From an uncultured Paracoccaceae bacterium (GTDB taxonomy: Bacteria; Pseudomonadota; Alphaproteobacteria; Rhodobacterales; Rhodobacteraceae): 64,000 nt of DNA. Each line of letters opens with the position of its first letter. Position 1 is the first letter of the stretch. Where the stretch lies: the NCBI GenBank assembly GCA_947499725.1, contig CANMPK010000001.1:1240001-1304000 (forward strand). Reading direction: 5' to 3'. The notes below the pieces were generated by a model. It ran no database searches. It was not told the origin of the DNA and was given only the letters and a program-made list of their open reading frames with translations. Of the stretch, positions 12,171-19,076 are shown one piece after another. The translations under genes and the position numbers were made by a program.

Positions 12171-12219
12171 ATTTTATTAGGTTTTTTGCACTTTGACCCT
12201 GACATTCGATAACGGGGAC

Positions 12220-12292
12220 GTGACCCACGAATGCGTTATTAGAAATTTTTAAACGACCAAGGTTATTCTGTTCTCACACCGCAAATCGCGGT
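12220..12292 (+). promoter_or_regulatory. Candidate promoter and 5' leader of the bufferin operon
   Basis: GTGACC (12220-12225), a 16-bp spacer and GAAATT (12242-12247) resemble the GTAACC-N16-CGAA promoter that I recall for the sigma-F regulon of Caulobacter, which drives a homologous operon; the match is imperfect. Downstream, ACCGC (12278-12282) can pair with GCGGT (12288-12292) in the leader. The start site is inferred only. Confidence 0.25.
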
Positions 12293-12324
12293 ATCGAGTT
12301 TTAACCTCTAAAAGGACGATACAC

Positions 12325-12630
12325 ATGTCTAAGACAGTAAAAACACTGGCAGTCGCCGCTTCCGTTGCAGCAGCAGTAACAGCAGCAACAACACACTCTG
12401 TTTCCGCAGCTGGCCAAGAAAAGTGCTTCGGTATTTCTCTGGCAGGTGAAAACGACTGTGCAGCAGGCCCAGGCACAACATGCGCAGGCACATCCACTGT
12501 TGATTACCAAGGTAACGCTTGGACATTGGTTGACGCAGGCACATGCTCTGACATCGAGCTTCCAGCTCTGGCAGACGGCACACCACGCACAGGCTCTCTG
12601 GAAGAGCTGAGCCGCGACCTGCCAGCATAA
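12325..12630 (+). CDS. bufA: Bufferin-type RiPP precursor, DUF2282 family
   Basis: This 101-residue protein has a Sec signal peptide (about residues 1-28, ending SVSA) and a core with exactly four cysteines: Cys34 (EKCFGI), Cys45 (NDCAAGPG), Cys53 (TTCAGTS) and Cys74 (AGTCSDIE). The arrangement is that of DUF2282 bufferins, periplasmic copper-buffering peptides in which some cysteines are converted to thiooxazole rings by an MNIO enzyme. AAAGGA precedes the ATG. It is the first gene of a four-gene operon with the matching maturation enzymes. The gene is separated from bufB by a strong stem-loop, which may raise precursor output. Copper as the ligand is by homology, not seen here. Confidence 0.88.
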
Positions 12631-12640
12631 GCTTTCCCTC

Positions 12641-12664
12641 GGTGCTGCCCTTCGGGGCAGCGCC
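12641..12664 (+). terminator. Stem-loop with UUCG tetraloop between precursor and enzyme genes
   Basis: GGTGCTGCCC (12641-12650) pairs over ten base pairs with GGGCAGCGCC (12655-12664) around a TTCG loop, followed by ACCCTTTTG. The short T-run suggests a partial terminator or an mRNA-stabilising hairpin that gives more precursor than enzyme message. Confidence 0.65.
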
Positions 12665-12710
12665 ACCCTTTTGAAGACCTCAAAGACCCAAGTCGCGATA
12701 AAGGTGATTT

Positions 12711-13568
12711 ATGTTTGATGCGCCTGAGAACATGCCCGCCCTGCCCCACAAGCCCGGCGTCGGTTACAAGCCGCAGCATTTCACCGAGATCATGGAAAAC
12801 CCTGATCCCGTCGCATGGCTCGAAGTTCACGCTGAAAACTATATGGGTCATGGCGGTCGCCCCTTGGCGCAGATCCGTCACCTTGCTGAACGTTTCCCCA
12901 TTTCCGTGCATGGCGTTGGCCTGTCGATCGGCGGCGAAGCCCCGCTTGATCCAGAACACCTTGCACGCCTGAAACATCTCGTCTCTTGGCTGAAACCCAC
13001 CGTGTTCTCTGAACATCTGGCGTGGTCCACCCATGGCGGCGAATATTTCAACGATCTTCTGCCTCTGCCCTACACCAAGGCCACACTCACCCGCGTGGCA
13101 GAGCATATTGACCAATTGCAAAACACCATTGGCCGCCAAATGCTGCTGGAAAACCCGTCCAGTTATCTGGCCTTCGCCGAAAGCACATGGTCCGAGCCTG
13201 ACTTCCTACGAGAGCTCGCCAATCGCACCGGCTGTGGCCTGTTGCTGGATGTGAACAACGTCTTTGTGTCAGCCACCAACCTTGATTACGACCCACGCAG
13301 CTATATCAACGACTATCCGCTTGAAGCTGTTGGTGAAATCCATCTGGGCGGCCATGATGAAGACGAAGACGACCACGGCAAACCTCTGCTGATCGACAGC
13401 CACGGCGCCGAAGTGGTAGACCCTGTGTGGTCCCTGCTGGACCACACGCTGTCCCTGTCTGGCCCACGCCCGATCTTGGTTGAATGGGACACCGATGTGC
13501 CAGAATGGCCTGTGCTGGCCAAAGAATGCCAACGCGCCGCCGCAGCTCTGATCAAGGTGCCCGCATGA
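12711..13568 (+). CDS. bufB: MNIO-family RiPP-modifying enzyme, DUF692
   Basis: This 285-residue TIM-barrel protein belongs to the multinuclear non-haem iron oxidases (MbnB/TglH relatives). Candidate metal ligands are visible in order: His67 (SVHGVG), His102 (SEHLAW), Glu147 (LLENPSSY), Asp180 (LLLDVNNV), His211 and His215 (EIHLGGHDED), Asp229 and His231 (LIDSHG) and Glu258. Such enzymes oxidise cysteines of a precursor peptide; in bufferin systems they form 5-thiooxazoles. AAAGGTG lies upstream of the ATG. The gene overlaps the DUF2063 gene by 4 nt, so enzyme and partner are made together. An acidic insert DEDEDDHG follows the HLGGH motif. Confidence 0.92.
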   Translation: MFDAPENMPALPHKPGVGYKPQHFTEIMENPDPVAWLEVHAENYMGHGGRPLAQIRHLAERFPISVHGVGLSIGGEAPLDPEHLARLKHLVSWLKPTVFSEHLAWSTHGGEYFNDLLPLPYTKATLTRVAEHIDQLQNTIGRQMLLENPSSYLAFAESTWSEPDFLRELANRTGCGLLLDVNNVFVSATNLDYDPRSYINDYPLEAVGEIHLGGHDEDEDDHGKPLLIDSHGAEVVDPVWSLLDHTLSLSGPRPILVEWDTDVPEWPVLAKECQRAAAALIKVPA

Positions 13569-14326
13569 GCATCGACCAAACCGAATTCCGCACCGCGATG
13601 CTCGATGCCGAAGTGGCAGTGCCCGAGGGCTTGCTAGATGGCCACGGCAACCCAGCCGGCCGCCGCTTTAGCGTGTACCGCAATAACGTGGCTGTTTCTC
13701 TGACCGAGGCTTTGGAAACCGGCTTTCCGGTGATTGCCAAACTGCTCGGGGATGCCAATTTCAAACCCATCGCTGGGCTTTTCCTACGCCAATCCCCGCC
13801 AAGCGCCCCCGTGATGATGCATTACGGCGCCGCCTTCCCGGGGTTTCTGCGCGGTTTTGAACCTCTGCAGCATCTGGGCTACCTGCCAGATGTGGCCAAA
13901 GTCGAACTCGCCCTGCGCCGCGCCTATCACGCAGAAGACGCGCAGGCGATTGCCCCTGACGCGCTGGGTCAAATCGATCCAGAGCAGCTTCCACTGGCGA
14001 CCTTCACCTTTGCCCCTGCGATGGAGCTGATCCGCTCGGATTGGCCGATCTACGACATCTGGGCCTACAACATGATCGAAGGCGCCCCTAAACCCCAATC
14101 TCGACCGCAGGATGTGCTGATCCTACGTCCCGAGTTTGACCCCGCCCCCCATGCTTTGCCCGCCGGCGGAGCAGACTTCATAACCGCCATGCGCCAAGGC
14201 CAAACCCTTGGTGACGCCGCAGAAAGCGCTGAAAACATGGTAGAAAACTTTGATCTGGGTACCGTTCTCGGCCTCTTGCTCACAAACGGCGCAATCACCC
14301 AAATCGCAATCGAGGACAAGCTATGA
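13565..14326 (+). CDS. bufC: MNIO partner protein, DUF2063 (BufC-type)
   Basis: This 253-residue protein has the DUF2063 N-terminal domain (about 5-95; RFSVYRNNVAVSLTEALETGFPVIAKLLG). Despite its old label as a DNA-binding domain, in bufferin and methanobactin-like systems it presents the precursor to the MNIO enzyme. The ATG at 13565 overlaps the bufB stop (ATGA), and its own stop overlaps the DoxX start in the same way. The C-terminal half (about 120-253) is a second, less conserved domain typical of the family. Confidence 0.88.
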   Translation: MSIDQTEFRTAMLDAEVAVPEGLLDGHGNPAGRRFSVYRNNVAVSLTEALETGFPVIAKLLGDANFKPIAGLFLRQSPPSAPVMMHYGAAFPGFLRGFEPLQHLGYLPDVAKVELALRRAYHAEDAQAIAPDALGQIDPEQLPLATFTFAPAMELIRSDWPIYDIWAYNMIEGAPKPQSRPQDVLILRPEFDPAPHALPAGGADFITAMRQGQTLGDAAESAENMVENFDLGTVLGLLLTNGAITQIAIEDKL

Positions 14327-14877
14327 ACACTTTGATTTCCCTGTACAACGCCGTCTTTGGCCGCCTAGAGCGCCAAGACTGGATCCTACCAACTCTGGCA
14401 CGTTTCACCTTTGTCGCGGTGCTCTTCCTATACTTCTGGAAGTCCGGCATGACCAAACTCGGTGATGGTTTTGTTGGTCTGTTTGTGCCAAGCACAGGCG
14501 CCTATGCACAAATCTTCCCGAAGGCCTTCGAAGCCGTCGGCTATGACGTCAGCCAATTTGGCCTGTTCCACTGGGCAGTTGTCTGGTCTGGTACTGTTGC
14601 TGAATTTGTACTGCCAATCCTACTGCTGATCGGCCTGTTCACACGTTTGGCCGCACTGGGCATGATCGGCTTTGTCTTCGTACAATCCCTGACAGACATC
14701 TACGGCCACGGCGCGGATGAGAAAACAATCGGCGCATTGTTCGATCGCTTCTCAGATTCCCACATCATGGACCAACGCGCCTTTTGGGTGCTGATGCTGC
14801 TGATCCTCGTGATCAAAGGCGCGGGTCCGCTGTCGCTGGACCGCATTCTAAAAGGCTCTGTAAAGTCTGAAGACTAA
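14323..14877 (+). CDS. DoxX family membrane protein of the bufferin operon
   Basis: This 184-residue inner-membrane protein has four predicted hydrophobic segments and the DoxX pattern (ARFTFVAVLFLYFWKSGMTKL near the N-terminus). DoxX proteins often close DUF2282-DUF692-DUF2063 operons; a redox role near the quinone pool has been proposed but is not established. Start and stop are translationally coupled to bufC by ATGA. Its TAA abuts the TAA of a convergent gene with no space for a terminator. Confidence 0.85.
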   Translation: MNTLISLYNAVFGRLERQDWILPTLARFTFVAVLFLYFWKSGMTKLGDGFVGLFVPSTGAYAQIFPKAFEAVGYDVSQFGLFHWAVVWSGTVAEFVLPILLLIGLFTRLAALGMIGFVFVQSLTDIYGHGADEKTIGALFDRFSDSHIMDQRAFWVLMLLILVIKGAGPLSLDRILKGSVKSED

Positions 14878-16067: not shown

Positions 16068-16436
16068 TTAGTTCGTGGTGTAGCAGCCTTTTTCGCCCAC
16101 TGGGCAGACCAAGCGCGATTTTGGCGCAGGCTGTGTATAGACTTTCACGGTTTTCACACGCTTCTTCGCAGCAGGCTGCGTGCATGTTTCCCCTGCGACA
16201 GGAACGCCACAGCTGATCATACCGCCCGCTTGCACAGGCTGAAGGCCGGCTGGGCAAATGTTGTCGCTAGACGCCGCCGCACGATACGCGCAACCCGCAG
16301 GCGTTTGCGGTGGGATCGAAGGGACGAATTCAATAATTGGATCTTCTTTGATTTTGCAAGGAAAGATAACGCAAGTCGCGTGGGCAGGTGCTGCAATAGA
16401 CACCAAAGCTGCGGCGAACATAATTTTCTTAAACAT
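16068..16436 (-). CDS. Small secreted cysteine-rich protein of unknown function
   Basis: This 122-residue protein has a clear signal peptide (MFKKIMFAAALVSIAAPAHA, cleavage after residue 20). The mature part has eight cysteines (ATC, FPC, AGC, NIC, ISC, ETC, LVC, KGC) and a Pro/Lys linker AAKKRVKTVKVYTQPAPK. Even cysteine number and export suggest disulfides in the periplasm. I do not recognise a family. AAGGTG lies 6 nt before the ATG at 16436. No neighbour points to a job. Confidence 0.65.
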   Translation of the reverse strand: MFKKIMFAAALVSIAAPAHATCVIFPCKIKEDPIIEFVPSIPPQTPAGCAYRAAASSDNICPAGLQPVQAGGMISCGVPVAGETCTQPAAKKRVKTVKVYTQPAPKSRLVCPVGEKGCYTTN

Positions 16437-16579
16437 GTCTGGCACCTTCTCTGTTCGATCTGCTCATGTTTATTCAGGTGGTCTTTTTCTAGCACAGACT
16501 ACTACATTTTGCAGCTCAGTCAATTTTTGTCACAGAAAATCAGCAAATTGCCCATAAAGCGTGACATTTTAAGTGCGGT

Positions 16580-18510: not shown

Positions 18511-18541
18511 CAGATCCGCTAATAGATATAGCGGATCTGAT
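18511..18541. terminator. Twelve-bp inverted repeat at the gloA / MarR convergence
   Basis: TCAGATCCGCTA (18511-18522) pairs perfectly with TAGCGGATCTGA (18530-18541). It overlaps the last codons of the MarR gene. There is no T-run, so it may act as a weak bidirectional terminator or mRNA 3'-end stabiliser. Confidence 0.5.
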
Positions 18542-19016
18542 CGCTCCAATACCGCTCAACCCGTTTGAGCGAGGATGTAATATCCTCCAGCCCCTCGTGG
18601 CCCAGCACGCCCTTTTCCACCAAACCATCCGCATGGCGTTCAAACAGTGTGGCCACCACATCCCGAATGCCCCGCCCTTTTTCTGTCAGGCGCACCCGTA
18701 CTGACCGGCGGTCAATCTCGCAGCGTTCATGGTGCATATAACCGGTTTCCACCAGTTTCTTCAGGTTATAGCTCACGTTGCTGCCTTGGTAATATCCGCG
18801 CGTCTTTAGTTCGCCCGCCGTGACCTCATTGTCGCCCACGTTAAACAACAACAGCGCCTGCACCGCGTTGATCTCCAACACGCCGACGCGTTCAAATTCA
18901 TCCTTGATCACATCCAGCAACAGTCGATGCAGACGTTCCACAAGCGCCAGGGCATCCAAATAGCCAGTCATAAAGCCGCGGTCCCCCGCCAAGCCCATAG
19001 AATGATGCATACTCAT
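18519..19016 (-). CDS. MarR-family winged-helix regulator (LdtR-like)
   Basis: This 165-residue protein has a MarR-type winged helix: EINAVQALLLFNVGD, the recognition region TRGYYQGSNVSYNLKKLVETGY, and the wing ERCEIDRRSVRVRLTEKG. The GYYQGSNVSYNLKKL helix is characteristic of the LdtR group of alphaproteobacteria, which controls cell-envelope and stress genes. I chose the ATG at 19016, preceded by GGAG at 6 nt; another ATG lies at 19028. A TTAGGT-N5-ACCTAA palindrome 61 bp upstream could be its own operator. Confidence 0.82.
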   Translation of the reverse strand: MSMHHSMGLAGDRGFMTGYLDALALVERLHRLLLDVIKDEFERVGVLEINAVQALLLFNVGDNEVTAGELKTRGYYQGSNVSYNLKKLVETGYMHHERCEIDRRSVRVRLTEKGRGIRDVVATLFERHADGLVEKGVLGHEGLEDITSSLKRVERYWSDQIRYIY

Positions 19017-19076
19017 ATCAGTCTCCATCTCGGTACAGAGAGGACACTGACGGCTATTGAAGAATAATCCGTTAAA

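Follow-up and report, generated by a model that had tools for sequence, protein, structure and literature searches.

Bufferins are peptides that bear thiooxazoles and sequester periplasmic copper, and a core set of genes for a DUF2282 precursor, an MNIO enzyme, a partner protein and a DoxX protein is standard for those of the bufferin-1 (Buf1) class (PMC12452194; this and the other papers cited here are drawn on in part). We analysed a 64,000-nucleotide stretch of DNA from an uncultured Paracoccaceae bacterium (contig CANMPK010000001.1, positions 1,240,001 to 1,304,000; hereafter the window), in which genes of four such families, in the order DUF2282, MNIO, DUF2063, DoxX, lie on the forward strand at 12325–14877, preceded by a conserved dyad that may stand in for the control described in Caulobacter. 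Our main point of comparison is the Caulobacter operon CC3254–CC3257, which we take to be a bufferin-1 operon. Its genes belong to the same four families in the same order as those of the window (DUF2282-DUF692-DUF2063-DoxX), and such operons are placed in Caulobacter under sigma-F, with the promoter GTAACC-N16-CGAA and restraint by NrsF (PMC3511200), whereas the window has neither and carries the dyad in that place. Captophorins and oxazolin (Fontimonas fontiphorin, Haemophilus HvfA) are likewise associated with an MNIO enzyme and a DUF2063 partner, DoxX often co-occurring, but their precursors carry EGKCG repeats, in contrast to the DUF2282 protein of the window (PMC13097082).

The operon and its precursor peptide

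The four forward-strand genes encode a putative bufferin-1 precursor of 101 residues (12325–12630; DUF2282, PF10048, 5.1e-24), a 285-residue MNIO bufferin maturase, BufB (12711–13568; MbnB_TglH_ChrH, PF05114, 2.9e-104), a 253-residue DUF2063 partner of PME-type 1 size, BufC (13565–14326; PF09836, 7.1e-22), and a 184-residue DoxX-family protein (14323–14877; PF07681, 3.8e-07, 31.1 bits against a cut-off of 23.6), with every Pfam match above its curated cut-off. The frames and the ATGA overlaps between the last three genes (13565–13568 and 14323–14326) agree with a preliminary description made from the sequence alone, as do the Pfam assignments. Among NCBIfam models, the enzyme matches MNIO_BufB ('MNIO family bufferin maturase') with 373.7 bits, the cut-off being 310, but reaches only 234.4 bits with the HvfB-type model, below its cut-off of 360; the DUF2063 and DoxX genes match HvfC and HvfX, respectively, though neither passes the cut-off, and none of the models fits the precursor. 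PADLOC returned no match for the MNIO enzyme, the sole protein submitted. The whole genome contains one MNIO gene and one DUF2282 gene.

On an alignment to TglH (chain 8hci), mapped by hand, all nine of the TglH iron ligands listed in PMC10880893 are kept in the enzyme (H67, H102, E147, D180, N183, H211, D229, H231 and E258), in agreement with the full set of candidate ligands proposed previously. The partner of bufferin maturases is described as DUF2063 plus an RRE (PMC12452194); in BufC, PF09836 covers residues 5–95, and the RRE half is inferred from the length of the protein alone.

The precursor has cysteines at positions 34, 45, 53 and 74, and the spacing C-x10-C-x7-C-x20-C is present in all 77 distinct precursors of our family sample and in all 77 loci from named relatives with a readable precursor, although the pattern used to pick precursors already presupposes the first two cysteines, not the last two. 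All four are invariant across 45 aligned precursors. By eye, the N-terminus combines a basic start, an alanine-rich stretch and VSA at 26–28, with A28 near-invariant in the same alignment, so that residues 1–28 are likely a Sec signal peptide and residues 29–101 the mature part. Bufferins leave the cytoplasm by the general Sec pathway (PMC12452194), so no dedicated exporter is required. In published Buf1 peptides, modification falls on the two central cysteines, and a disulphide joins the first to the last (PMC12452194); transferring this pattern, we predict that Cys45 and Cys53 become thiooxazoles and that Cys34 bonds to Cys74 in the window precursor, and the earlier statement that the modified cysteines are not known was thus too cautious. 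The calculated monoisotopic mass of residues 29–101 would be 7304.29 Da in this predicted form, 7312.35 Da if only the disulphide is present and 7314.37 Da without any modification. Elsewhere in the family, the bufferin precursors of three loci (L124, L254 and L255) have NGC instead of NDC at the second cysteine, and one genome (G007, locus L065) carries a tandem pair of bufferin precursors.

Of 248 family genomes, sampled at one per genus, 178 carry DUF2282, so the operon is ordinary there; within the window's own genus, nine of nine genomes do, its own included. For named relatives, we kept 80 of the 317 loci found, by closeness to the window enzyme; in this set the closest enzymes are those of Cognatishimia, up to 88% identical to the window MNIO, by which the window groups with that genus. 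Homologues of both the DUF2063 partner and DoxX occur in 80/80 of these loci, and thrS lies upstream, inside the fetched 3 kb, in 78/80, the exceptions (L234 and L240) being loci where contig ends leave little upstream sequence. This conservation of thrS, partner and DoxX indicates that the operon is a stable chromosomal piece in these relatives.

Family models, iron ligands, cysteine spacing, gene order and single copy all agree with the bufferin-type reading of the preliminary description, and we put the probability that 12325–14877 is a bufferin-1 operon at roughly 0.9. With published Buf1 systems it shares the four cysteines, the apparent Sec signal and the core of MNIO enzyme, PME-type 1 partner and DoxX protein, and no difference was found in the window genes from what the parts of PMC12452194 drawn on here describe. 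The operon is therefore a typical member of an already known class, its core gene set being the published standard.

A conserved dyad before the precursor gene

Upstream of the operon lies a conserved 31-bp dyad, a putative operator, at 12209–12239 (no strand assigned), whose 29-bp core (12210–12238) follows the pattern TNACG-N4-CGTKA-NN-CACG-N4-CGTKA at 18 of 18 positions. The dyad ends 85 bp before the precursor ATG, with its centre about 100 bp before it. The operon start given in the preliminary description, 12220, falls inside this element and cuts through it.

We compared 78 bufferin promoters of the family, comprising that of the window, those of 8 genus relatives and 69 others from the 178 DUF2282-bearing genomes, the last group being the best-ranked by E-value and not a random draw; a locus without the precursor pattern (L099), the second G007 precursor and duplicate larger loci (L041–L060) were omitted. 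The dyad, counted where at least 15 of its 18 positions match, was present at 48/78 promoters and a reversed-pattern control at 0/78, a description and not an independent test because the pattern was derived from the same promoters. Under a weight matrix built from the 39 pattern-found sites outside the genus, the window site scored 20.0 against at most 2.3 for 200 shuffles, and each of the nine genus members outscored all of its own shuffles. At 77 of the named loci (the 80 minus 3, a set that partly overlaps the 78 promoters and was picked by closeness to the window enzyme), the dyad was found 73 times, and neither the reversed control nor a SigF-like promoter was found at any (0/77 each).

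Away from bufferin operons, the site occurs only at chance level. In its own genome, the window dyad is the only match with fewer than 3 mismatches; two further sites have 3 mismatches, and the reversed pattern gives 4 forward and 6 reverse matches. Across the 248 family genomes, allowing at most one mismatch, there were 61 sites in 60 genomes, against 6 for the reversed control. Of the 61, 53 stand in front of a bufferin precursor, 1 is within a bufferin operon and 7 are outside such operons. A script placed 48 of the 53 before a precursor; inspection added five (G148, G009, G246, G123 and G191), four with precursors missed by the pattern (three with NGC, one with HC for KC) and one with the site matched on the other strand. 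Of the seven outside sites, two lie before genes assigned by Pfam, one for a YkuD L,D-transpeptidase (G112) and one for a sigma factor (G199); the other five lie before or in frames judged by eye to be YHS-like (G197), OmpA-like (G130), ccoN-like (G205) and msrA-like (G191, overlapping tandem sites counted once), with an unidentified frame in G171; as they number seven against six control matches, we draw no inference from them. In 289 genomes of the class, two matches beyond the own genome stand against nine for the control, which places the dyad at chance level outside the family. At one locus (L106, 1501–1529), a copy of the dyad sits between the precursor and the MNIO gene, not before the precursor.

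Downstream of the dyad, 25 bases past the 29-bp core, the window has a forward-strand TATTCT (12264–12269) that may serve as a -10-like hexamer, in register with a TA-starting hexamer in the relatives: TA forms the first two bases at this fixed distance in 31/48 dyad promoters, and column conservation agrees. No sigma-70 consensus pair, and no good -35, was found upstream of the operon. This layout would suit an activator bound immediately before a promoter that has no good -35, and the dyad is thus a putative binding site for an activator protein. We found no description of it in the bufferin papers, as far as they are compared here, although no dedicated motif search of the literature was made and it may well have been published; the main text of PMC12452194 does not contain the word 'promoter', and among the titles and abstracts listed, no work on roseobacter expression of the bufferin operon was found.

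SigF–NrsF and the proposed control through the dyad

The preliminary description reported no extracytoplasmic function (ECF) sigma factor or anti-sigma factor next to the operon and concluded that control must come from elsewhere. That conclusion agrees with the lack of NrsF (PF06532), which has no match in the whole assembly (ECF sigma factors as such were not searched genome-wide), and the 200 bp upstream of the precursor contain no SigF-like promoter (GTAAC-N16-18-CGW); what it overlooked is the conserved cis site directly before the operon. Among the 78 promoters, 48 have the dyad, 15 are SigF-like (one of them also with the dyad) and 16 have neither at the thresholds used. The 14 SigF-only loci are all in genomes with NrsF over cut-off, and NrsF is adjacent in 11, as judged by hand from coordinates. 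By comparison, only 1 of 40 dyad loci is in such a genome, the 40 being those with NrsF-searched genomes (the 8 genus relatives were outside that search). Fisher's test on 14/14 versus 1/40 gives 4.6e-12, with shared descent ignored. These results suggest that, in roseobacters and their relatives, SigF–NrsF control may have been replaced by a dedicated activator responding to metal or thiol stress, with essentially one target per genome, marked by the dyad; we would give this proposal about even odds.

Several observations weigh against this picture of the operon and its control, besides the derivation of the pattern from the promoters in which it was counted. Neither promoter type is present, at the thresholds used, at 16 of the 78 loci, and two of these are in NrsF genomes. 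One dyad genome (G155) has NrsF over cut-off, and two others (G129 and G228) have matches below it. The locus of G203 bears both promoter patterns without NrsF in the genome, the SigF-like one likely being a chance match. The regulator that binds the dyad was not found among the candidates looked at, which were an LdtR-type MarR protein and RegA/PrrA. As to the peptide itself, AlphaFold gave only a poor model for the precursor (mean pLDDT 63.6, pTM 0.42), which therefore lends no support to the disulphide.

The gene for the first of these candidates, the nearest regulator gene looked at, lies 3.6 kb beyond the downstream end of the operon (18519–19028, reverse strand), and its product scores 228.6 bits with the LdtR model NF047395, just below the cut-off of 250. 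Of 20 relatives, 11 have a homologue inside their fetched loci of 10.7–17 kb, and one family genome (G112) has the dyad before an L,D-transpeptidase gene; synteny by itself, however, can account for the ldtR neighbourhood. The dyad is missing upstream of ldtR and also of the L,D-transpeptidase gene of the own genome, where the best upstream site reaches 11 of 18 positions and so does the control. Thirty other L,D-transpeptidase genes, the loci returned out of a larger number of matches, reach at most 13/18 (control at most 12); the one exception to this absence is L107. Moreover, the LdtR box described from Liberibacter is A/T-rich, unlike the dyad (PMC3999280, PMC5481520). We therefore regard this protein as unsupported as the dyad regulator, and its involvement as improbable. 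A global regulator such as RegA/PrrA is a still weaker candidate and very unlikely to be the one: RegA is a copper-binding response regulator in Rhodobacter capsulatus, of the same bacterial group (PMC9147068), but a global regulator would be expected to have many sites, and the dyad is a single-target site in its own genome and across the family, an argument made without comparison to a RegA consensus.

Among neighbouring genes, that of the LdtR-type MarR protein shares a syntenic block with the bufferin operon. The relatives' L,D-transpeptidase genes (L135–L164) often have a looser TCA-N8-TGA palindrome upstream, with half-site scores slightly above control by eye. Between operon and MarR gene, the reverse strand encodes a small, secreted-looking, cysteine-containing protein of 125 residues (16068–16445) with no Pfam or NCBIfam match; counting the window, it is present in 5 of the 21 loci that were compared.

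Proposed mechanism and significance

By analogy with published work on Buf1 and other thiooxazole peptides, from which we infer the chemistry, export and copper function of the window operon, the precursor would be made in the cytoplasm and presented by the DUF2063 partner to the MNIO enzyme, which would use its multi-iron centre to oxidise Cys45 and Cys53 to 5-thiooxazoles. The peptide would then be exported by Sec and acquire its Cys34–Cys74 disulphide, and the mature form would buffer excess periplasmic copper, with DoxX supporting the process in some way. Transcription would be set by the dyad through a dedicated regulator standing in for the Caulobacter SigF–NrsF pair.

The main metal or stress need not be copper, and a thiooxazole-peptide system directed mainly at, for example, gold, cadmium, chromate, mercury or oxidative stress, although rather unlikely in our view, has precedents to draw on. 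The Legionella GIG operon responds to gold as well as copper. The Caulobacter sigma-F regulon, which includes these operons, responds to chromium and cadmium (PMC3511200), gig operons are bufferin clusters, and MerC fusions exist (PMC12452194). Binding of Cu(I) by thiooxazole peptides (PMC13097082), on the other hand, speaks for copper. That the operon is decaying or silent is hardly credible, given four intact frames, the retained ligands and cysteines, and the same block behind thrS in 78/80 named relatives.

The operon itself is one more very typical bufferin system, and the conserved promoter site is the useful part of the finding. The dyad could serve as bait in the search for a new factor regulating copper-peptide production in a common marine bacterial group, and its distribution suggests that the published SigF–NrsF control does not apply generally in this family.
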